From a virus, in IMG/VR virus record IMGVR_UViG_3300023116_004122, positions 1 through 26,879 of that record: a stretch of DNA of 26,879 nucleotides. The stretch is one strand, 5' to 3'. The notes below the pieces were generated by a model that was given only the letters and a program-made list of their open reading frames with translations, had not been told where the DNA came from and did not search any database. Position numbers and translations under genes: made by a program. How positions within the stretch are numbered: the first letter of the stretch is position 1; the number at the start of each line of letters is the position of its first letter. Below are positions 503 through 26,826 of this stretch, piece by piece.

Positions 503-657
503 TGTTTTGAACAAGTAAGTAGATCCATCAGGGAAATGGTGGAGGTACTTATTTCTTCGCCACCCTCAGGCGAAGATATGAGAGACTGTGTTTATACTCC
601 CCATAGGTCTCGGTTAGGAAGAGTTTATTAAAAACCGTTACAATTTGTAACCGTTCA
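503..657 (-). promoter_or_regulatory. psbA 5' leader with hairpins
   Basis: The predicted psbA leader contains a perfect 7-bp stem, CTTCGCC (555-561) with GGCGAAG (569-575) and a 7-base loop, extendable by one pair. Near its start lies the 15-base palindrome at 637-651 (GTTACAA / TTGTAAC around one base), followed on the minus strand by five T residues, a weak attenuator-like arrangement. PhotoRC RNA motifs have been described in front of photosystem genes of marine cyanobacteria and phages; whether this leader belongs to that class was not tested. Confidence 0.45.
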
Positions 658-10094: not shown

Positions 10095-11153
10095 TTATTC
10101 TGCGTAGATTTTTTTAGAGATTTGCCAGTTAATCCATTCGTAAGTCTTACGAATGCCTTCTTCCAGAGTTTGCTGATAGTCCCAACCCAACTTTTCGCGT
10201 ATCAAATCGTTATTAGAGTTACGACCACGGACACCAAGAGGACCATCAATATGAATCTTAGAAACTTCCTTGCCAGCAACTTTAGCAACAGTGTCTACCA
10301 GTTGATTAATGGAGACCATCTCTTCAGAACCAATATTAACAGGTCCGATGAAGTTGCTATCCATTAGTCGTCTAGTCGCTTCAATGCATTCGTCAACGAA
10401 CAAGAAGGAACGAGTTTGTAGACCGTCTCCCCACACCTCGATTGCTCCACCTTCCTGTGGGAGGTAAGCGACTTTACGGCAGATTGCAGCTGGCGCTTTC
10501 TCTCTTCCACCGTCCCAGGTTCCTTCAGGACCAAAGATATTGTGGTAACGAGCAATGCGAACAGGGATGCCATGATTACGGTTGTAAGCAAGGTAAAGTC
10601 TCTCGGAGAAGAGTTTTTCCCACCCGTACTCGCTATCAGGATTAGCGGGGTATGCAGATTCTTCACGGCAATCAGGGTTATCAGGATCCAATTGATTATA
10701 CTCGGGATACATGCAAGCAGAACCCGAATAGAAAATCTTGGTAACGTTCTTACCCTTTTCTTCATTCATCAACCGCTGCTTTTCAAGCACGTTTAGGTTG
10801 ATTGTGACTGAGTTCTGCATGATCTCAGCATCGTTTTCACCCGTAAAGACGAAACCAGCACCACCCATGTCGGCAGCGAACTGATAGATCTCATCAAAAC
10901 ACTGGATGTAACGATAAGGAACTTCGTGATAGAAGTTTCCTTGCGTACCTTTCCATTGAAGAACACGTTTTACAAACCCAGGATCCCTAAGGTCTCCTAG
11001 AACAAATTCATCTGCTTCAGTCTTTGTGAATTCTGGACGTTTAAGGTCAACACCACGAACCCAATATCCTTCTGATTTAAGTCGTTTAACCATGTGACTT
11101 CCAATGAAACCACCTGCACCGAGAACTAGTGCTTTCTTCTGATACTGTGTCAT
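10095..11153 (-). CDS. GDP-mannose 3,5-epimerase
   Basis: This 352-residue extended SDR matches GDP-mannose 3,5-epimerase along its length. It has the NAD-binding GAGGFIGS (12-19), FYSGSACMYPEY (141-152) with the acid/base Cys147, YGWEK (Tyr176, Lys180), the family-specific GGREKAPAA (215-223, Lys219), WGDGLQTRSFLFVDE and VRGRNSNN. The enzyme converts GDP-D-mannose to GDP-L-galactose (and GDP-L-gulose). With the mannose-6-phosphate isomerase-type cupin upstream it defines a GDP-mannose branch, which could feed the GT10/GT11-type transferases. The start overlaps the RfbH-like gene by 4 bases. Confidence 0.92.
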   Translation of the reverse strand: MTQYQKKALVLGAGGFIGSHMVKRLKSEGYWVRGVDLKRPEFTKTEADEFVLGDLRDPGFVKRVLQWKGTQGNFYHEVPYRYIQCFDEIYQFAADMGGAGFVFTGENDAEIMQNSVTINLNVLEKQRLMNEEKGKNVTKIFYSGSACMYPEYNQLDPDNPDCREESAYPANPDSEYGWEKLFSERLYLAYNRNHGIPVRIARYHNIFGPEGTWDGGREKAPAAICRKVAYLPQEGGAIEVWGDGLQTRSFLFVDECIEATRRLMDSNFIGPVNIGSEEMVSINQLVDTVAKVAGKEVSKIHIDGPLGVRGRNSNNDLIREKLGWDYQQTLEEGIRKTYEWINWQISKKIYAE

Positions 11154-12481
11154 ACCGAATGATGGAAAAGATTTTCTTGGGTATATTTTACAACAACCTC
11201 TTCTATGTAGTCAAGCATCGGTTCTGTAATAACAGGAGAGCAACCAATAAAGAATACGTTGTTGAGCACCTTAGATGCGTTTGGATAGTTAGATGCTGGT
11301 TCAATATGCCTATACCCAGGATGCATCAATAGATTACCAGCAAAATAATTTCTAGTCTGGATGTTATTGTCTTCTAAATACTTAACAAGATGATGTTTAT
11401 TTGCTGATACAGGACCATCTTCACAGACAATCGGTACACCAAACCAAGAAGTCTCTGCATGTTCTTTCTCTTCAACAACCCTGACACCAGGGATCTTAGA
11501 AAAGATCTCATGGAGTCTTGCTTTGTTGAAACGACGGATACGATGTATCTCGTCTTGCTTAGTCAGTTGCACCAACCCGATAGACCCTTGCAAGTCAGCA
11601 GGTTTGAGGTTGTATCCCTGAACGCCGAAGACATACTTATGGTCAACCTGTTGGTCATACCCTTTCAACCAGTGGTCGAATCGGTTGCCACAAACGCCAT
11701 TGGGCAATTTGTTTTGGGATCCTACACAATAGCACCCTCTGCCCCACCAAGCATAAGATCTAGCGATCTGTACGATCTCTTCAATGTTAGAGGACACCAT
11801 ACCACCTTCGATCGTACTGATATGATGCGCTGGGTAGAACGAACAAGACGCTGCGACGGCGTGTTTGGTAAGCAGATTACCACGCCAGCGACTTCCAAGG
11901 GAATCACAATTGTCCGCAATGTAGTGGATATTATAAGAATCAAGAATCTCAAAAAACTCATCAAAGTCATAGGGATTTCCCAAGACGGGTGATGAAAATA
12001 CAGCACGAGTCTTTGTAGTAATTTTAGACCTAATCTGATCTAGATTCCAGTTAAGGTCATCATAATTGATATCTACAAATACTGGTTTTAGATTGTTTTG
12101 TAGAATGGGGTTAATTGTAGTTGGAAAACCACAAACACAAACAATAATTTCATCACCATCTACCCATCCAAAATACTTCTTGAGTGCTGCAATCATCACC
12201 AAGTTCGCTGAGGAACCTGAGTTGACCATCACAGAATGACCAAACTCAAACTGCTTAGAGAACGCTCGTTCAAACTTATTAACTTCTTCTCCAGCAGGCA
12301 ACCATTTACCCTGCAAAAGAGTCGTGATCGCAGCAGTTGGTTCTTGGTTATCCCAATAAGGACCAGAATAATAAATCGGTTGACCAGGTTCCCAATTCTT
12401 GTTCGCAAGATAAGGAAATAGATGTTCACCTTCCTGTTCTAGGTTAGTGATAAAGTCAGATACTTTACTGCTTAGAGACAT
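11150..12481 (-). CDS. rfbH: RfbH/DdhC (E1)-type 4-keto-6-deoxyhexose 3-dehydratase
   Basis: The 443-residue protein belongs to the DegT/DnrJ/EryC1/StrS PLP family, with SGSSAN (88-93) and GFPTTINP (118-125). At the PLP site it reads FYPAHH (215-220), so the Schiff-base lysine is replaced by His220, the hallmark of E1 (RfbH) and ColD dehydratases. Cys192-X57-Cys250-X1-Cys252-X11-Cys264 matches the C-X57-C-X-C-X7-C cluster of E1 except for a longer last gap. This favours a 2Fe-2S E1 enzyme over ColD, which lacks the cluster. E1 removes the 3-hydroxyl of CDP-4-keto-6-deoxyglucose in 3,6-dideoxyhexose synthesis and needs an E3 reductase, which is not seen here. Confidence 0.88.
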   Translation of the reverse strand: MSLSSKVSDFITNLEQEGEHLFPYLANKNWEPGQPIYYSGPYWDNQEPTAAITTLLQGKWLPAGEEVNKFERAFSKQFEFGHSVMVNSGSSANLVMIAALKKYFGWVDGDEIIVCVCGFPTTINPILQNNLKPVFVDINYDDLNWNLDQIRSKITTKTRAVFSSPVLGNPYDFDEFFEILDSYNIHYIADNCDSLGSRWRGNLLTKHAVAASCSFYPAHHISTIEGGMVSSNIEEIVQIARSYAWWGRGCYCVGSQNKLPNGVCGNRFDHWLKGYDQQVDHKYVFGVQGYNLKPADLQGSIGLVQLTKQDEIHRIRRFNKARLHEIFSKIPGVRVVEEKEHAETSWFGVPIVCEDGPVSANKHHLVKYLEDNNIQTRNYFAGNLLMHPGYRHIEPASNYPNASKVLNNVFFIGCSPVITEPMLDYIEEVVVKYTQENLFHHSV

Positions 12482-13287
12482 AGATCTTTTACAATGAATT
12501 CTAAATCGAGATGTTGTTCAAACCCAAGTGATTGAAGTTTTTTAGTGTCCATCCAGAAATTCTGGCATTGGACAGTTTTGTGAAACTCGGGAGGATCGAT
12601 GCTCACTACCTTACCCTCCGACTGTATATAGTGGTTGGCAAGAGAGATGATTTCTGATACTGTAGTCGGTTTACCAGATCCGATATTATAAATCTCGTTC
12701 AAGTTGCCTTTGTCTAGTACAAGTTTAATCGCTCTACAAACATCCTGAACATGCATTATATCACGACAATGATTACCGTGATCATACAGTTTGATATCAT
12801 GACCCACTTTAAGTTCGTTAATCATCCAAGTGATTGCGTTCTTTTGGCGGGTAGCATTTTTGTCTCCTGCGCCTAAGACATTACATAAGCGCAGGATACG
12901 ATATTTCATACCATAAGTATCAGCAAAAGACCTAATTAAATCTTCAGCACACTTTTTGGTAATAGAATAGAACCCAGTAGGATCACATCTAGAATCTTCT
13001 TTCGCTGGCATGTAGGGTGTTTTACCGTACACAAACCAAGAAGAGATGAAGTTGAATGTAATGTCCTCTGAACGACAGTAGTCCAGAACCTCACAAAGGA
13101 CTTTTAGATTAGTATCTACATCCTTAGTAATCTGATCATGAACGTGATAGTTGTGCGTTGTAGAAATGAAATACAGGATCTCCTTGTGTCTTGGATACCT
13201 GTCAAATTTCTGTTGAATGTCAACAATCTCTGGATACATTTTGGCAAACTTTCCACCAACAAATCCAGGACCATAAAGTGAAATCAT
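12472..13287 (-). CDS. NAD(P)-dependent SDR, possibly 4-keto reductase of a dideoxysugar
   Basis: From ATG 13287 the 271-residue protein starts in a Rossmann motif, SLYGPGFVGG (3-12), and has ISSWFVYG (81-88) and the catalytic YSITK (107-111), a short extended SDR. The start forms an ATGA overlap with the 4,6-dehydratase stop; the in-frame codons up to 13302 lie inside that gene. Lying between a 4,6-dehydratase-like gene and an RfbH/E1-like gene, it has the position and size of abequose or paratose synthase (RfbJ/Prt type). That specific role is inference; it could instead be an epimerase. Confidence 0.78.
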   Translation of the reverse strand: MISLYGPGFVGGKFAKMYPEIVDIQQKFDRYPRHKEILYFISTTHNYHVHDQITKDVDTNLKVLCEVLDYCRSEDITFNFISSWFVYGKTPYMPAKEDSRCDPTGFYSITKKCAEDLIRSFADTYGMKYRILRLCNVLGAGDKNATRQKNAITWMINELKVGHDIKLYDHGNHCRDIMHVQDVCRAIKLVLDKGNLNEIYNIGSGKPTTVSEIISLANHYIQSEGKVVSIDPPEFHKTVQCQNFWMDTKKLQSLGFEQHLDLEFIVKDLCL

Positions 13288-14216
13288 TGCTTCAAGTACC
13301 AATCAACTGTCATTTCTAATGCTGAGTCAAAACTCATATGAGGAATCCAACCAGTCCTCTGGGTAAGTTTATCATAACTCATACCATAACGCTTGTCTTG
13401 CCCTGGACGACTGTTAGAAACCCCAATCAATGAATGGGGTTTATCAAGAATATCTAGAATTTTTTTAGTAACTTCAATATTCTGCAGTTCACATCCACCA
13501 CCAATATTGAAGTTATCATTTAAAATCCGTTGTTCTTCAATCGTCCAGATAGCACGACAATGATCATGAACATACAACCAGTCACGAATTTGATGTCCGC
13601 CGCCGTACATGTATGTCACTCTATCATGCAAAGCATTGTCAACCACCTTTGGGATCAACTTTTCTTTATGCTGATGAGGTCCATAGTTATTACTGCAGTT
13701 GGTAATAACGTATGGAAGACCGTATGTGTTATGCCATGTTTTAACGTAATGGTCTGATGCTGCTTTACTGGCACTATAAGGATTTCTTGGATCATAAGGA
13801 GTATCTTCAGTGAAAAGATTCTCATCATCATATTCAAGAGATCCATAAACTTCATCGGTAGAAATATGATGAAATTTATGAAGGTCGATTGCAACTGAGG
13901 CATTCAACAAGTTAATAGTACCAACTACATTAGATTCCAAGAAGGGTCGATAGTTCGTAATAGAATTATCGACATGACTCTCGGCAGCAAAATGAAAAAC
14001 CTTTCTGGGTTTATACTTGTGGAAGATGTGGTCCACATGCTGTTCATTTGTAATATCACACCAGACAAATTCAAACTGAGAATCTTGAGGAATGAACCTC
14101 ATGTCTGCAGCATAAGTTAGATTGTCCAGTACAATGACTTTTTCATTGGTAACCTTCCGCATATAATGCAGAAAATTACTACCAATAAATCCTGCACCAC
14201 CAGTTACCAAATACAT
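13284..14216 (-). CDS. rmlB: dTDP-glucose 4,6-dehydratase-like SDR
   Basis: The 310-residue protein has GGAGFIGS (6-13), VIVLDNLTYAADM (27-39), HFAAESHVDNSI (75-86), STDEVYG (119-125), YSASK (147-151) and GGHQIRDWLYVHDHCRA, all RmlB signatures. The enzyme makes dTDP-4-keto-6-deoxyglucose, the entry to most deoxysugars. It is about 40-50 residues shorter than typical RmlB. The RfbH-like enzyme two genes downstream usually takes a CDP-linked substrate, so the true nucleotide may differ from the family label. No RmlA, C or D is in the window. Confidence 0.88.
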   Translation of the reverse strand: MYLVTGGAGFIGSNFLHYMRKVTNEKVIVLDNLTYAADMRFIPQDSQFEFVWCDITNEQHVDHIFHKYKPRKVFHFAAESHVDNSITNYRPFLESNVVGTINLLNASVAIDLHKFHHISTDEVYGSLEYDDENLFTEDTPYDPRNPYSASKAASDHYVKTWHNTYGLPYVITNCSNNYGPHQHKEKLIPKVVDNALHDRVTYMYGGGHQIRDWLYVHDHCRAIWTIEEQRILNDNFNIGGGCELQNIEVTKKILDILDKPHSLIGVSNSRPGQDKRYGMSYDKLTQRTGWIPHMSFDSALEMTVDWYLKQ

Positions 14217-14581
14217 TATTCTGTGTCTTGAGAATCTACTCTTCCATAATCATCTTCTAGTCGTATAATGTCGTCTTCACGACATTCACCGAACTGCACT
14301 TCAATAAACATTACTCCATTATCACCAGCAGTAATGCGGTGACGTGAACCAAGTGGAATAAAGAAGTGTTTACCAGGATAAATTTGCTCTTCATAGTTGT
14401 TGACAAGTGCAAGAGCACTGCCCTCAACTACCACCCAGTGTTCTGAGCGGTGATTATGGTATTGAAGAGAAAACCTGGAGTTAGGATTTACAAAAATACG
14501 CTTTACTTTATATTCATCGCCCTGTTCGATGGTTTCGTACCATCCCCAAGGTCGATCTCTACGCACGCATTTGCAAAACAT
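14216..14581 (-). CDS. Mannose-6-phosphate isomerase type II cupin (ManC C-terminal type)
   Basis: This 121-residue single-domain cupin has RPWGWYETIEQGDEYKVKRI (10-29), the metal site YHNHRSEHWVV (H42, H44, E47/H48) with distal His81, and a C-terminal IEVQFGEC...DIIRLEDDYGR. It corresponds to the isomerase domain at the C terminus of bifunctional ManC/AlgA, without the GDP-mannose pyrophosphorylase part. It would convert fructose-6-P to mannose-6-P, the start of the GDP-mannose branch. It is the first gene of the sugar operon, and its AGAGGG ribosome site can pair with CCCT just upstream. Its start is ATG 14581. Confidence 0.87.
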   Translation of the reverse strand: MFCKCVRRDRPWGWYETIEQGDEYKVKRIFVNPNSRFSLQYHNHRSEHWVVVEGSALALVNNYEEQIYPGKHFFIPLGSRHRITAGDNGVMFIEVQFGECREDDIIRLEDDYGRVDSQDTE

Positions 14582-14796
14582 GTTCCCTCTAGGGTTAGGT
14601 TGTCAGGCTCGCCAAGTTATTTTTTTGACTGGGTAATAACTAAGTCCCAGGCGGGGTTGACCCCATCCGCACCACCTTGTTTTAGGAACAAGGAAACCAG
14701 AGGGTCATAGTGACTCCACCACTTAGTTTTAGGAACTAAGAAACCCAGGGGTCCTAAGACCATCCCGACCAGGGCGTTTTTAAAGTCTTCCCGTGA
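14582..14796 (-). promoter_or_regulatory. Structured leader of the sugar operon with tandem hairpins
   Basis: This gene-free stretch is dense in inverted repeats. Two tandem units share the loop CCTAA (minus strand) and 7-bp stems that differ but stay paired: CTTAGTT/AACTAAG (14722-14740) and CCTTGTT/AACAAGG (14675-14693). The second unit is also closed by GACCC...GGGTC. A TTAGG at 14751-14757 could pair with a hairpin loop as a pseudoknot. Further down come CTGGG...CCCAG, GTTATT...AATAAC and CCCT-AG-AGGG covering the Shine-Dalgarno of the cupin gene. The wcaG RNA motif is reported upstream of exopolysaccharide genes in cyanobacteria and cyanophages; identity with it is untested. Confidence 0.6.
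14672..14754 (-). repeat. Two imperfect direct repeats, each a 7-bp hairpin with the same loop
   Basis: Two copies about 46 bases apart share the flanks (GGTTTC before, GTGGTG after, minus strand) and the loop CCTAA. Each 7-bp stem is perfect although the two stems differ in sequence. This compensated difference points to selection for RNA structure, not just duplicated DNA. Confidence 0.7.
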
Positions 14797-15012
14797 CTAT
14801 GCAACCTCAATAGACTCAAAATCACGAACAAGGCAGTCCATAAGAATGTCATAATCATCAAGTGGGTCACCTGAAAATACCACTCCTTCATTCTCGTAGT
14901 ACCGACGAACCTTTTTGTAAAGTTTCGGATTCTTCACGTCAAGGAAAATTTCGCCATCAGAGGCACTGCGAAGCATTTGAAGGTCTTTCTTGAACTTAGT
15001 TGTGAGTGTCAT
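14797..15012 (-). CDS. Small hypothetical protein (71 aa)
   Basis: The ORF has ATG at 15012 and stops at 14797, just before the structured leader. The protein is soluble and of mixed charge, with a basic first third (TKFKKDLQMLR), a middle KLYKKVRRYYENEG and an acidic C terminus (DDYDILMDCLVRDFESIEV). I recognise no domain. A sigma-type promoter (15063-15035) lies just upstream, so this gene may be first in the transcript that continues into the leader and the sugar operon. Confidence 0.75.
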   Translation of the reverse strand: MTLTTKFKKDLQMLRSASDGEIFLDVKNPKLYKKVRRYYENEGVVFSGDPLDDYDILMDCLVRDFESIEVA

Positions 15013-15034: not shown

Positions 15035-15063
15035 AGTCTATCAGACTATGAAATTTTAGTCAA
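15035..15063 (-). promoter_or_regulatory. Possible sigma70-type promoter
   Basis: TTGACT (15063-15058) and TAGACT (15040-15035) on the minus strand are separated by 17 bases. The match is weaker than for the tRNA promoters. A start near 15028 would give a very short leader for the gene beginning at 15012 and could supply the downstream leader and sugar operon. Confidence 0.45.
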
Positions 15064-16735: not shown

Positions 16736-16862
16736 TTTCAATTTGATCAAGTTTTACAAGAACTTTTGTCAGTAGATCTTTTAGTATATCAAATTCTTCA
16801 TGGATATCTTGGTGATGAAACCTTAGAGGTTTTTGAATTATTTTTTTGAGTTTTTTCTTCAT
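16716..16862 (-). CDS. Possible small basic protein (48 aa) starting at the tRNA-Val end
   Basis: An open frame begins with ATG at 16862, whose A is the discriminator base of tRNA-Val, and ends at TAA 16716, overlapping the oxygenase start by 20 bases. The product begins MKKKLKKIIQKP and contains a helix EEFDILKDLLTKVLVKLDQI. The end overlap with the next gene supports it; the lack of a separate ribosome site and the overlap with tRNA speak against it. Confidence 0.4.
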   Translation of the reverse strand: MKKKLKKIIQKPLRFHHQDIHEEFDILKDLLTKVLVKLDQIENDGKTQ

Positions 16863-16933
16863 GGGCGATACAAGGATCGAACTTGTGACATCCTCCTTGT
16901 AAGGGAGGCGCTCTACCGCTGAGCTAATCGCCC
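16862..16933 (-). tRNA. tRNA-Val (TAC)
   Basis: A 72-nt cloverleaf with acceptor GGGCGAT/ATCGCCC and discriminator A. The anticodon arm is CCTCC-CTTACAA-GGAGG with anticodon TAC, and the T arm ACAAG-TTCGATC-CTTGT. CCA is not encoded. The first ten bases overlap the end of the 53-residue gene at 16924-17085. The tRNA therefore comes from a transcript that also carries protein genes. Confidence 0.95.
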
Positions 16934-17085
16934 AACAAATATTCTACAGTGTTAGCGACATCTCCCATTGCATCTCTAAGATCGGGTCTTTGTCCCGACT
17001 CTTGTTTGCAAATAGGACGACGATTATCAGTTAGGGTCCATCTCCATTGACCCATATCTTCACAATACCAGAGATTGATTTTCAT
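16924..17085 (-). CDS. Small hypothetical protein (53 aa) overlapping tRNA-Val
   Basis: ATG at 17085 overlaps the methyltransferase stop as ATGA, a strong sign of a translated, coupled gene. The product begins MKINLWYCEDMGQWRWTLTD and ends NTVEYLLGD; it is rich in Trp and has no membrane segment. Its last codons and the TAG stop lie inside the 5' acceptor stem and D-stem start of tRNA-Val, so translation and tRNA processing compete on the same transcript. Function unknown. Confidence 0.75.
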   Translation of the reverse strand: MKINLWYCEDMGQWRWTLTDNRRPICKQESGQRPDLRDAMGDVANTVEYLLGD

Positions 17086-17759
17086 CTAATAACTAACCAA
17101 AATCTTCGATAGTGAGTTCGATACTCAATATCGTTTTTTACTGTCGGTTGGTATAACAAATAATTGTCAGAAGTCCAGTTGTATACGTTCTGGATAATGA
17201 CATTATCATGCAACCATCCTGTAGTATTTAGATCGGCATTGTCGAAGCGTATAAACTTTGCACCGAGTTCAGTAAGAGTTTTTTCTACCGATGCCTCAGT
17301 GAAGGTTGGATGCAAGCAGTTGTATTCATCGTAATGATATCCACCACCTGGTTCCCAATAATCCTCTACAGTATTATCTGGATGAACCACTGTTTCTAGT
17401 AGCATCAAATTAGAATGATTTAATGCACATGCTAGATCTTGTCTCCAGTTTTCAACATGATACAAAACACCAAAATGAAGAACTAGGTCAAATTGCTGAC
17501 CCAAATCGTACACAGTGTTTTGATCTAATTGAATTAGTTTAGATGCGACTTGTAGTTTTTGTTGAATTGATTCTAAGTGTTCAAATCTAGCGTCACAAAA
17601 AGTAACTTGAGAACCCAACTTGGTGAAAAACATTCCGAAGTCACCATGAGCGGCACCCAGTTCTAGAATTGTTTTACCCAGAAACCAATCATCTCCCAAA
17701 ATATTTCGTGTTTTATTCAGTCTAGACTGAAACCAATCATCATAAAATGGTAATTGCAT
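17082..17759 (-). CDS. SAM-dependent class I methyltransferase
   Basis: From ATG 17759 the 225-residue protein has the SAM-binding motif I KTILELGAAHGDFG (about 29-42), a motif II acidic end VTFCDARFEHLE, and motif IV-like FDLVLHFGVLYHVENW. This is a Methyltransf_11/12-like fold. The open frame extends to 17894, but that part reads through tRNA-Ala and into tRNA-Leu and is not protein. The start lies 20 bases after the tRNA-Ala 3' end. The substrate is unknown. The stop overlaps the next small gene as ATGA. Confidence 0.83.
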   Translation of the reverse strand: MQLPFYDDWFQSRLNKTRNILGDDWFLGKTILELGAAHGDFGMFFTKLGSQVTFCDARFEHLESIQQKLQVASKLIQLDQNTVYDLGQQFDLVLHFGVLYHVENWRQDLACALNHSNLMLLETVVHPDNTVEDYWEPGGGYHYDEYNCLHPTFTEASVEKTLTELGAKFIRFDNADLNTTGWLHDNVIIQNVYNWTSDNYLLYQPTVKNDIEYRTHYRRFWLVIR

Positions 17760-17778
17760 AACACCAAAATAATTTGGA

Positions 17779-17851
17779 TGGAGAATAGGAGACTCGAACT
17801 CCTGACATCCTGCTTGCAAAGCAGGCGCTCTACCAACTGAGCTAATTCCCC
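17779..17851 (-). tRNA. tRNA-Ala (TGC)
   Basis: A 73-nt cloverleaf with acceptor GGGGAAT/ATTCTCC (one G-T pair) and discriminator A. The anticodon arm is CCTGC-TTTGCAA-GCAGG with anticodon TGC, and the T arm AGGAG-TTCGAGT-CTCCT. No CCA is encoded. It follows tRNA-Leu after three bases, so the two form one precursor. Confidence 0.96.
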
Positions 17852-17854
17852 TGG

Positions 17855-17937
17855 TGTCGGTAAGAGGACTTGAACCTCCACGTCGCAAGGACACTGGAAC
17901 CTAAACCCAGCGCGTCTACCAATTCCGCCACACCGAC
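17855..17937 (-). tRNA. tRNA-Leu (TAG)
   Basis: An 83-nt type II tRNA with a long variable arm. The acceptor is GTCGGTG/TACCGAC with discriminator A, the D-region TGGCGGAATTGGTAGACGCG is typical of tRNA-Leu, and the anticodon loop TTTAGGT carries TAG. CCA is not encoded. It is first in the tRNA-Leu/tRNA-Ala pair behind a sigma-type promoter. Confidence 0.95.
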
Positions 17938-17964
17938 ATAAGAGAACCCCACGGGGTTATGGAG

Positions 17965-18002
17965 ATCATAACACAAGTGGGGACTGTTGTCAAGTATTTA
18001 TC
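17965..18002 (-). promoter_or_regulatory. Promoter of the tRNA-Leu/Ala unit (sigma70-type, with a late-like motif upstream)
   Basis: TTGACA (17993-17988), a 17-base spacer and TATGAT (17970-17965) on the minus strand give a near-consensus host promoter about 20 bases before tRNA-Leu. GATAAATA (18002-17995), a late-type motif, lies directly upstream and overlaps the stop codon of the small membrane gene. A 6-bp hairpin AACCCC-GT-GGGGTT (17945-17958) sits between the promoter and the tRNA. Confidence 0.75.
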
Positions 18003-18186
18003 GCTCCAGAATTATTCTCTCACATTTTTCAAGATTCTTTCTGCAGAAGTTACGAACGTAACTATCGGCATCAAGGTCCATTTCATGGTGAGCATGGAGG
18101 TGAAGTCCCTGAATTAGAATCAAGAACCCCATGACCAACAGGTTGAACTGAGTAACGGGGTGAAGTAATACCTTCAAATATTTCAT
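17998..18186 (-). CDS. Small membrane protein (62 aa)
   Basis: ATG at 18186. The protein has one hydrophobic segment (FNLLVMGFLILIQGL, about 14-28) after a basic start, then a His-rich stretch HLHAHHEMD and a polar C-terminal tail ending KCERIILER. This fits a single-pass inner-membrane protein with the tail in cytoplasm or periplasm. It lies downstream of an intrinsic terminator and has only a weak ribosome site. Function unknown. Confidence 0.55.
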   Translation of the reverse strand: MKYLKVLLHPVTQFNLLVMGFLILIQGLHLHAHHEMDLDADSYVRNFCRKNLEKCERIILER

Positions 18187-18212
18187 CAGAAACGATACAA
18201 AATTTTAACCAT

Positions 18213-18239
18213 AAAAAAGGACCCTTGTTAGAGGGTCCT
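18213..18239 (-). terminator. Intrinsic terminator after the exported barrel-like gene
   Basis: On the minus strand AGGACCC and GGGTCCT form a 7-bp stem around an 8-base loop, followed directly by five to six T residues. It lies 22 bases after the stop at 18261 and closes the single-gene unit starting at the late promoter at 18745-18752. Confidence 0.88.
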
Positions 18240-18260
18240 GATTTTTATCTAATCAAGTGA

Positions 18261-18629
18261 TCAGAAGGTCCACTTAACACCTGCTTTGGTGCCGTAACCA
18301 CGGTCAACACCAGCAACGCCAGAACCGACGAAGCTGACTTCACCATAAACACCCAGGTTCTCAGTAGCAGCAACGCTCAGACCTGCCTTACCAGAAGGAA
18401 CAGTGTCAGCAGCAGCACCGTCAGGAGAAACGACAGAAGCACCTGCTTGGACGTAGTAACCGAGAACACCTTCAGTGCCTTCGTAACCTACGTGGAAGTC
18501 AGTGGTCGTGCCAGTGTAGTCGCTACCAGTGAAGCCAGAGTTGGCTTCAACGTTAACGTAGGGTCCTGCCATTGCAGCACCAGCGAAAAGGGGAGCAGCA
18601 GCGAGTGCTGCGAATGCGGATTTAATCAT
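18261..18629 (-). CDS. Exported outer-membrane-barrel-like small protein (122 aa)
   Basis: The protein begins with a clear signal peptide (basic MIK, then about 17 Ala-rich hydrophobic residues, cleavage likely after AMA near residue 21). The mature part alternates polar and aromatic residues in short strands (DFHVGYEG, VLGYYVQAGASVV, LGVYGEVSFVG) and ends in KWTF. A C-terminal Phe is the recognition signal of bacterial outer-membrane barrels. A small 6-8-strand barrel in the host outer membrane is therefore possible; a virion role is the alternative. It has a good Shine-Dalgarno (GAGGT), its own late promoter and an intrinsic terminator, so strong late expression is likely. Confidence 0.75.
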   Translation of the reverse strand: MIKSAFAALAAAPLFAGAAMAGPYVNVEANSGFTGSDYTGTTTDFHVGYEGTEGVLGYYVQAGASVVSPDGAAADTVPSGKAGLSVAATENLGVYGEVSFVGSGVAGVDRGYGTKAGVKWTF

Positions 18630-18752
18630 TTTAGATACCTCGTTATTTTCTCGCAGAGTAATACCTGCGGATGGAAAGAGACTCGACGTGTCTCTGTTTA
18701 ACTTCGTGACTACTTGCGAGTAGTTGAGGCTTTCATCACTTGGTTATTTATA
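18630..18752 (-). promoter_or_regulatory. Late promoter and structured leader of the barrel-like gene
   Basis: TATAAATA (18752-18745) is a perfect T4-type late promoter. The leader of roughly 105 bases contains ACTACT-CGCA-AGTAGT (18724-18709) and AGAGAC...GTCTCT (18695-18677), both perfect 6-bp stems, before the GAGGT ribosome site. Such hairpins may stabilise the mRNA or shape translation. Confidence 0.75.
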
Positions 18753-18777
18753 TTGTATCGGGAATTCGGTTTCCCGA

Positions 18778-18849
18778 AGCGGAGTATCGGAATCGAACCG
18801 ACGACATCTAACTTGGAAGGATAGCGTTCTACCGCTGAACTAACTCCGC
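18778..18849 (-). tRNA. tRNA-Gly (TCC)
   Basis: A 72-nt cloverleaf with acceptor GCGGAGT/ACTCCGC and discriminator T. The anticodon loop CTTCCAA carries TCC. The anticodon stem CTATC/GTTAG has one T-T mismatch at the fourth pair (30-40). The T arm is GTCGG-TTCGATT-CCGAT with one G-T pair. CCA is not encoded. A GNRA-type hairpin (GGGAGA-GAAA-TCTCCC, 18858-18873) lies just 5' of it. Confidence 0.93.
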
Positions 18850-18857
18850 ATTGTGGT

Positions 18858-18873
18858 GGGAGATTTCTCTCCC
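18858..18873 (-). other. GAAA-tetraloop hairpin before tRNA-Gly
   Basis: GGGAGA-GAAA-TCTCCC is a perfect 6-bp stem with a GNRA tetraloop, eight bases upstream of the tRNA-Gly 5' end on the same transcript. It may help define or protect the precursor end. Confidence 0.55.
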
Positions 18874-18900
18874 AACGCACTCCCTCACACGGACAGGAGT

Positions 18901-18930
18901 ATTATAAGACAAGATGTACCACCTTGTCAA
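18901..18930 (-). promoter_or_regulatory. Consensus sigma70-type promoter of tRNA-Gly
   Basis: TTGACA (18930-18925), an 18-base spacer and TATAAT (18906-18901) on the minus strand match both consensus hexamers exactly. The first base of the -35 box is the discriminator base of tRNA-Thr, so the promoter abuts the preceding tRNA. The spacer is one base longer than the 17-base optimum. Confidence 0.82.
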
Positions 18931-19003
18931 GCCACTCGTCGGACTTGAACCGACGACCTACGGTTTACAAAACCGTTGCTCTATCCAGCTGAGCTAGAGT
19001 GGC
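18930..19003 (-). tRNA. tRNA-Thr (TGT)
   Basis: A 74-nt cloverleaf with acceptor GCCACTC/GAGTGGC and discriminator T. The anticodon arm is ACGGT-TTTGTAA-ACCGT with anticodon TGT, and the T arm GTCGG-TTCAAGT-CCGAC. CCA is not encoded. Two bases separate it from tRNA-Asn upstream. Confidence 0.96.
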
Positions 19004-19005
19004 AA

Positions 19006-19077
19006 CTCCCCCGGCAAGATTCGAACTTGCGACCCATTGATTAACAGTCAACTGCGCTACCGCTGCGCCACAGGGGA
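19006..19077 (-). tRNA. tRNA-Asn (GTT)
   Basis: A 72-nt cloverleaf with acceptor TCCCCTG/CGGGGGA and discriminator G. The anticodon loop CTGTTAA carries GTT on stem GTTGA/TCAAT (one G-T pair), and the T arm is GCAAG-TTCGAAT-CTTGC. CCA is not encoded. Its 5' end directly follows the stop codon of the 58-residue gene. Confidence 0.95.
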
Positions 19078-19254
19078 TTACAGGGGTTTAATACCCTGTT
19101 CCTTACAGAGTTTGAAGTAGAGTTTATAATACCTCTGCTTCATCTCATCAAGGATTTTATTGTCCTCTTCAAAACCCAATTTCTTGGTATGGGTATAACA
19201 CCCTTCAAGTTCTCCAATGAGTATTAAAACTTTTATCGGATTGATTGGGTCCAT
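19078..19254 (-). CDS. Small hypothetical protein (58 aa) between tRNA-Arg and tRNA-Asn
   Basis: ATG at 19254 and TAA at 19080-19078, the stop abutting the tRNA-Asn 5' end with no gap. The product starts MDPINPIKVLILIGELEGCY and ends in a basic C terminus (RYYKLYFKLCKEQGIKPL). It looks like two helices and has no recognised domain. No Shine-Dalgarno is evident, but the gene fills the space between two tRNAs on one transcript. Confidence 0.6.
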   Translation of the reverse strand: MDPINPIKVLILIGELEGCYTHTKKLGFEEDNKILDEMKQRYYKLYFKLCKEQGIKPL

Positions 19255-19270
19255 AACGAAAGAAGGACAA

Positions 19271-19344
19271 CGACTCAGGAGGGATTCGAACCCCCGACCA
19301 ACTGCTTAGAAGGCAGATGCTCTATCCTGCTGAGCTACTGAGTC
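19271..19344 (-). tRNA. tRNA-Arg (TCT)
   Basis: A 74-nt cloverleaf with acceptor GACTCAG/CTGAGTC and discriminator G. The anticodon loop CTTCTAA carries TCT on stem TCTGC/GCAGT, with a T-T mismatch at the outermost pair (27-43). The T arm is GGGGG-TTCGAAT-CCCTC. CCA is not encoded. It is the first tRNA behind the promoter at 19389-19417 and preceded by a long hairpin. Confidence 0.94.
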
Positions 19345-26191: not shown

Positions 26192-26390
26192 CCGTGTCTC
26201 CTAAGTATTCTAGTGAATAGATTTCATGATCTTCGATTTCTGGATCTAACCATTCGTAGAATTCGGCTTTAATAGCGTGTGCATCTTCTATTGTATCCAC
26301 AACATCATAAGTAGGAATTTCACAAAGAGTATGTATACGATCTATTGCCCAATCATGTGTCGCTGATAGAGTGTCTTCCAAAGTTACCAT
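26184..26390 (-). CDS. Small acidic hypothetical protein (68 aa)
   Basis: I start at ATG 26390, since the longer frame to 26471 lies inside the endonuclease gene. The product (MVTLEDTLSATHDWAIDRIH ... EYLGDTDD) is acidic, without membrane segments. It overlaps the endonuclease by 38 bases and the next gene by 8. Function unknown. Confidence 0.65.
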   Translation of the reverse strand: MVTLEDTLSATHDWAIDRIHTLCEIPTYDVVDTIEDAHAIKAEFYEWLDPEIEDHEIYSLEYLGDTDD

Positions 26391-26826
26391 AATCTTTTCG
26401 CATGTAGCGTCCAAGGATGTTACTATTGTAGTACGCTGGACTGCCGTCGTCAAGTGCCTCAGATAAGACATTATTTAAGAATAACTGTTTTGTTTCCTCA
26501 AAATTACAATTACCCTTCGTGGTGTGGAGACTTATTATTTCTCTATTGAAAGTCTCTTTACCGTATTTTTTTAAATCCTCTTTTAATTCTGGGCAAGAAC
26601 CGTAATACTTCTTCCAATCCGATTCTTGTTTTACTTTTCTTTTTTTACCCGGTGGTTTTCTGAACGACCAAAAATACTTTCTACCAATGTAACGTCGTGA
26701 GTTGGACTTATTGGTAATGAGATAAACAAACCCGAAGTAATCCCCAATATCATTACTATCAAAAGGTTTGTTATCAAATGTCCATGGATTCTCATAACTT
26801 ACATCATTATTTATGCCTAAGCTCAT
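26353..26826 (-). CDS. GIY-YIG-type putative endonuclease (157 aa)
   Basis: The protein shows the GIY-YIG pattern as FVYLIT (33-38) and RYIGRKYF (45-52), a basic stretch PPGKKRKVKQESDWKKYYGS (58-77), KKYGKETFNREII (86-98) and a candidate metal-binding Glu in NFEETKQLF (108-116). It is related in layout to phage Seg-type endonucleases, though no DNA-binding repeat domain is evident. The first 30 residues form an extra N-terminal lead. A late promoter lies 23 bases upstream. Whether it is a free homing endonuclease or a conserved phage nuclease cannot be told. Confidence 0.8.
   Translation of the reverse strand: MSLGINNDVSYENPWTFDNKPFDSNDIGDYFGFVYLITNKSNSRRYIGRKYFWSFRKPPGKKRKVKQESDWKKYYGSCPELKEDLKKYGKETFNREIISLHTTKGNCNFEETKQLFLNNVLSEALDDGSPAYYNSNILGRYMRKDYGNFGRHSISDT

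Follow-up and report, generated by a model that had tools for sequence, protein, structure and literature searches.

Described RNAs nearest to the element

The described RNA closest to the element considered here is wcaG (Rfam RF01761). The 2010 survey (Weinberg et al. 2010, PMC2864571) put wcaG forward as a candidate riboswitch of cyanophages, with exopolysaccharide or high-light genes under its control, and the regulation of exopolysaccharide genes is repeated in later literature. That survey also describes the STAXI motif as a pseudoknot in tandem, with two or three repeats, and the tandem glycine riboswitch and tandem glnA RNAs as repeated folded units in one untranslated region (PMC2864571).

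Our locus lies in the window, by which is meant the full 26,879-nt stretch of IMG/VR virus record IMGVR_UViG_3300023116_004122. It holds a chain of four pseudoknot modules on the minus strand, and the published wcaG RNA is the last two of these, modules 3 and 4. They match the whole Rfam model, in a cyanophage and beside sugar or exopolysaccharide genes, as expected of wcaG. The window differs in having two additional upstream pseudoknot modules that are absent from the model, and probably in the pseudoknot stems found in both core modules; across the family as a whole the element has a stop codon before it and a terminator after it, which is not the position of a plain 5' UTR. STAXI is alike in its tandem pseudoknots, but it is found with other genes and in other organisms; the comparison is by description. 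The tandem glycine riboswitch and glnA RNAs are alike in having repeated folded units within one untranslated region, but the units of the chain are not copies of one aptamer and the chain is without a demonstrated ligand. No description of a tandem wcaG, or of a placement between stop codon and terminator, was found in the open-access literature. The supposed tandem copy is reinterpreted here as a longer modular chain, common across the family, with two testable models of its function.

The window and its genes

The window is a cyanophage fragment, containing psbA with a PhotoRC-II RNA, and its relatives at the DNA level are Synechococcus phages. The PhotoRC-II RNA (541-634, minus strand; 72 bits against a gathering score of 39) lies directly 5' of psbA, which overruns the window end. 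Seven tRNA genes are packed, with small phage genes in between, inside 2.5 kb (16862-19344, minus strand). A GIY-YIG homing-endonuclease-like protein is encoded at 26353-26826 (minus strand); its top PHROG (phrog_447) carries the annotation 'NAD synthetase', which recurs in phage records and appears wrong for this protein.

The chain fills most of a minus-strand gap of about 215 bases, which opens after the stop codon (14799-14797) of a 71-aa ORF and closes at the start codon (14581) of a cupin gene. The preliminary description had placed the element in front of a sugar operon, and nucleotide-sugar genes do lie directly downstream. The neighbouring features are as follows.

15035..15063, minus strand: promoter-like TTGACT-17-TAGACT, upstream of the 71-aa ORF (consensus match only)
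14797..15012, minus strand: 71-aa ORF, phrog_552, function not known, directly 5' of the chain
14585..14590, minus strand: AGAGGG, likely ribosome-binding site of the cupin gene, judged from sequence
14216..14581, minus strand: cupin gene, PF01050 (mannose-6-phosphate isomerase C-terminal family), gene 1 of the sugar operon
10095..14216, minus strand: remainder of the sugar operon, with two NAD-dependent epimerase/dehydratases, a DegT-type aminotransferase and a further epimerase

IMG/VR contains at least 586 relatives of the 71-aa ORF, a frequent neighbour of wcaG chains. Its stop codon, TAG, overlaps the first stem of module 1, and at the other end some 18 bases separate the chain from the cupin gene's likely ribosome-binding site. 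Neither a minus-strand promoter-like site between the ORF and the cupin gene nor a terminator after the chain was found in the window.

A chain of four pseudoknot modules

The chain extends from 14798 to 14608 (minus strand, about 190 bases), and its four H-type pseudoknot modules are spaced about 50 bases apart. Each module consists of the pseudoknot, a conserved linker and a short hairpin, the hairpin being missing from the last. Written as RNA, the linkers joining modules 1-4 are UGGUCGG, UGGUGGAG, UGGUGCGG and UGGCGAG. The parts are listed below as DNA, stem by stem.

14750..14798, minus strand: module 1; stems AGTC 14798-14795/GACT 14787-14784 and GGG 14792-14790/CCC 14774-14772; linker TGGTCGG 14771-14765; hairpin GGTC 14761-14758/GACC 14753-14750
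14704..14747, minus strand: module 2; stems TGGG 14747-14744/CCTA 14733-14730 and CTTAGTT 14740-14734/AACTAAG 14728-14722 (the first hairpin of the preliminary description); linker TGGTGGAG 14721-14714; hairpin GTCA 14714-14711/TGAC 14707-14704
14653..14698, minus strand: module 3 (P1-P2 of Rfam wcaG); stems GG 14698-14697/CC 14686-14685 and CCTTGTT 14693-14687/AACAAGG 14681-14675 (the second hairpin); linker TGGTGCGG 14674-14667; hairpin GGGG 14664-14661/CCCC 14656-14653
14608..14650, minus strand: module 4 (P3 of Rfam wcaG); stems CTGGG 14650-14646/CCCAG 14633-14629 and AGTTATT 14641-14635/AATAACT 14621-14615; tag TGGCGAG 14614-14608

The pseudoknot stem of module 3 has two pairs only in the window, which is among the weaker cases in the family.

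The two hairpins from which the analysis began are present exactly as claimed, with the common loop CCTAA and common flanks (TTT 5' of the stem, TGGTG 3' of it). Their compensated stems had been taken as a mark of selected RNA structure, and stem compensation is indeed seen in the covariation of relatives. The pairing proposed for the shared loop did not survive. An upstream TTAGG was thought to form a long-range pseudoknot with CCTAA; it sits in the variable loop region of the GGTC/GACC hairpin, it is not a conserved partner, and it is absent from relatives having the same CCTAA loop (e.g. L260). The actual pseudoknot partner of each hairpin is the GG(G) just 5' of its stem, which in module 2 is the TGGG 5' of TTT.

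Searching 601 bases with the Rfam covariance models (cmscan) gave two wcaG matches on the minus strand, both above the gathering score of 42 bits. The first (14701-14601, 67.9 bits, E 1.6e-12) spans positions 1-98 of the model with all consensus pairs formed in the alignment; it corresponds to modules 3-4, which show the three hairpins of wcaG and its conserved UGGUGCGGA linker. The second (14800-14707, 42.9 bits, E 1.1e-6) lies out of register over modules 1-2, with four of the seven pairs of the first hairpin broken, and is therefore not a full second copy of wcaG. The suggested identity with wcaG thus holds for 14701-14601 and fails for the two hairpins as parts of two wcaG copies.

Covariation among relatives

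Searches of IMG/VR with the cupin gene, with the 71-aa ORF and with a 14-base pattern of the core supplied related loci, and phage isolates were added through DNA similarity. With a covariance model made from 12 core sequences, the core was recognised in most of the loci, and 146 distinct contexts were kept. Near-identical relatives of the window (the records of L003 and L004) have the same chain. In L005, whose cupin is 64% identical, the same four-module layout precedes the cupin gene with many stems changed (CCTAG/CTAGG in module 2, GTTGG/CCAAC in module 3).

Across 94 aligned, distinct core sequences, five helices (24 pairs) are 98.5% paired and show 399 double changes, compared with a mean of 105 in shuffles and at most 47 in slid controls; these nested helices are biased towards the model used for aligning, and kin sequences were counted separately. 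The two core pseudoknot stems provide a more independent test, since they are not in the search model: in the same alignment they are 95.3% paired, with 89 double changes as against 15 in shuffles. When the test was anchored, pseudoknots of the module-3 type formed at least three pairs in 76 of 124 sequences (shuffled mean 40, maximum 58 of 2000), and those of the last module did so in 81 of 102 (shuffled mean 30, maximum 44). Covariation across the 94 relatives thus supports the pseudoknots of both core modules. For the stems of modules 1-2 there are 14 double changes against 5 in shuffles, in a set of ten sequences with two rows misaligned; module 1 has a second stem that does not vary in this set and hence lies outside the covariation test. 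Conservation of the core linker is in part built in, many loci having been collected by means of it. Nested folding of the 200 bases is of ordinary stability (z -0.34), so the case for structure depends on covariation and the covariance model.

Layout of the chain across the family

Chains were resolved by their tags, namely B (TGGTCGG), A (TGGTGGAG), C (TGGTGCGG) and E (TGGCG[AT]G), plus the variant TGGTGG[TA][TG]C. Successive tags are about 50 bases apart across the family, and modules have been added one at a time and in variable order. Among 137 resolved chains the commonest tag orders are A-C-E (40), C-E (18) and B-A-C-E (15), the last being that of the window. The preliminary description had considered a duplicated copy unusual. 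This is so for the Rfam matches, two adjacent ones above threshold having been seen in the window lineage only (the window and its near-identical relatives, records G001 and G002), but not for the modules: an A or B module stands upstream of the core in 109 of the 137 chains. Weak neighbouring Rfam matches in several isolates fit extra chain modules. In four loci (L097, L102, L256 and L333) the last pseudoknot module passes directly into a tRNA-Leu gene, and an earlier chain has its end tag just upstream, so that the chains stand back to back.

Where the chain begins and ends

All transcript ends referred to here are predictions from sequence. At its beginning the chain touches or overlaps a stop codon in most relatives. 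Of 129 chains, 115 have the stop of an ORF (50 aa or longer) 0-45 bases ahead of the first tag; the control rates in the same loci are 278/2374 (12%) for random positions and 386/1848 (21%) for non-coding ones. Of 112 scored cases, 61 have the stop no more than 12 bases from the first tag, a position in the 3' half of the first module. The upstream proteins belong to 18 unrelated families, 14 of which include terminator-bearing chains; as many of the loci come from related phages, the counts are not independent, and how widely the chains are spread over upstream families tells more.

At its other end the chain usually stops a few bases short of an intrinsic terminator, found within 120 bases of the last tag in 101 of 134 chains (control 70/2563, 3%). 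Terminator and sigma-70 type promoter are predicted together in 60 of 145 (control 0/2599), and in 58 cases the terminator hairpin contains the -35 box belonging to the promoter of the next gene. In L174, L180, L209, L212 and many others it is the region of the terminator loop and 3' arm that holds the -35 (TTGCAT or TTGACA), 17 bases before TATAAT. Loci collected by the core pattern alone show the stop codon in 67/72 and the terminator in 60/72. The signal is weaker in phage isolates (stop 12/20, terminator 7/20); in place of the terminator, several of these carry a tRNA gene or a hairpin that lacks a T run. With neither terminator nor promoter-like site in its gap, the window is an exception to this boundary pattern.

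Downstream genes and hosts

Genes for nucleotide sugars or surface polysaccharides predominate after the chain and are strongly enriched there; the genes were named from sequence and from the Pfam hits given by their homologues in the window. In 41 loci an epimerase follows that belongs to the family of the window gene 11153-10095, and nucleotidyltransferases, glycosyltransferases, cupins and carbamoyltransferases are further types. In isolates hli is frequent downstream, several having a tRNA gene between chain and hli. The published link of wcaG with exopolysaccharide and high-light genes in cyanophages is therefore real. Mutual prediction of upstream versus downstream genes singled out neither side. 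An Rfam search of 386 cyanobacterial genomes (strict filters, controls without a positive) detected no wcaG; a search for the same family did detect it in phages, to which it looks restricted. Scanning genome contigs for the 14-base core pattern gave, among the matches listed, seemingly chance matches in unrelated bacteria.

Possible functions

Our preferred reading, held tentatively and just short of what we would call probable, is that the wcaG chain is a transcript-boundary element and not a plain 5' leader riboswitch. A start at the stop codon, a promoter after the chain and the lack of an anti-termination signal make a boundary role the better fit to the family, and with a promoter after the chain in most relatives the downstream message need not include the chain at all. 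The fuller version, to which we commit ourselves a shade less, is that wcaG is the conserved core of a modular pseudoknot chain set between stop codon and terminator, closing one transcript and keeping the next operon, of auxiliary sugar or photoprotection genes, apart from it. Ribosomes ending the upstream gene would hold the first module open, and the remaining chain would fold into a compact, hard-to-unwind 3' tail protecting the upstream message and setting it apart from the sugar operon. Terminator and promoter are absent in the window lineage, which would place the chain inside one message running from the 71-aa gene to the cupin gene. It probably acts there within that message, between the two genes, and might separate their expression through message stability or ribosome access. 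The strongly conserved unpaired linkers could be the site of a ligand or protein, which counts against the boundary reading, as do the missing terminator of the window and the weaker signal in isolates. Seeing wcaG as part of a chain alters which gene it should be tested on, accounts for Rfam's weak adjacent matches in many phages, and makes definite predictions of where messages end when phages infect important ocean bacteria.

A leader riboswitch or attenuator, in which the chain senses a metabolite (e.g. a nucleotide sugar) and controls read-through into, or translation of, the sugar operon, is on balance doubtful, but it stays a serious rival because the sugar and polysaccharide enrichment downstream is unexplained by a pure 3'-end role. 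Sugar genes follow in most loci despite differing upstream families, the chain is directly 5' of the cupin start codon in both the window and L005, and the literature treats wcaG as a candidate riboswitch with this gene association. Such a leader is hard to reconcile with the terminator and promoter that separate chain from gene in most relatives, with a chain that abuts or overlaps the stop codon of another gene, and with the tRNA gene that intervenes before hli in several isolates. Nor do the terminator arms (69 distinct among 94) co-vary with the chain, as pairing for anti-termination would have them do.

Type III antitoxin RNAs (ToxI, CptI) are tandem H-type pseudoknots followed by a terminator, an outline that the family resembles, the terminator being present in relatives and not in the window. 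By this analogy a terminator-ended 3' fragment might act in trans as a decoy, binding a host or phage protein, for instance a nuclease or a type III-like toxin, and the conserved linkers would suit such binding. We think this unlikely: the window modules are heterogeneous and not near-identical repeats, and the adjoining gene encodes a cupin, not a toxin.

Very unlikely is a true duplication of the whole wcaG RNA into two independent sensors in series. Two adjacent Rfam matches above the gathering score are what it would produce, but the second is out of register, relatives add modules singly and in varying order, and comparison of the modules, together with that register, contradicts a clean duplication. 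Chance hairpins without function, for which the ordinary folding energy of the 200 bases might be cited, can practically be dismissed, being contradicted by the covariance matches and the many compensatory changes in relatives.
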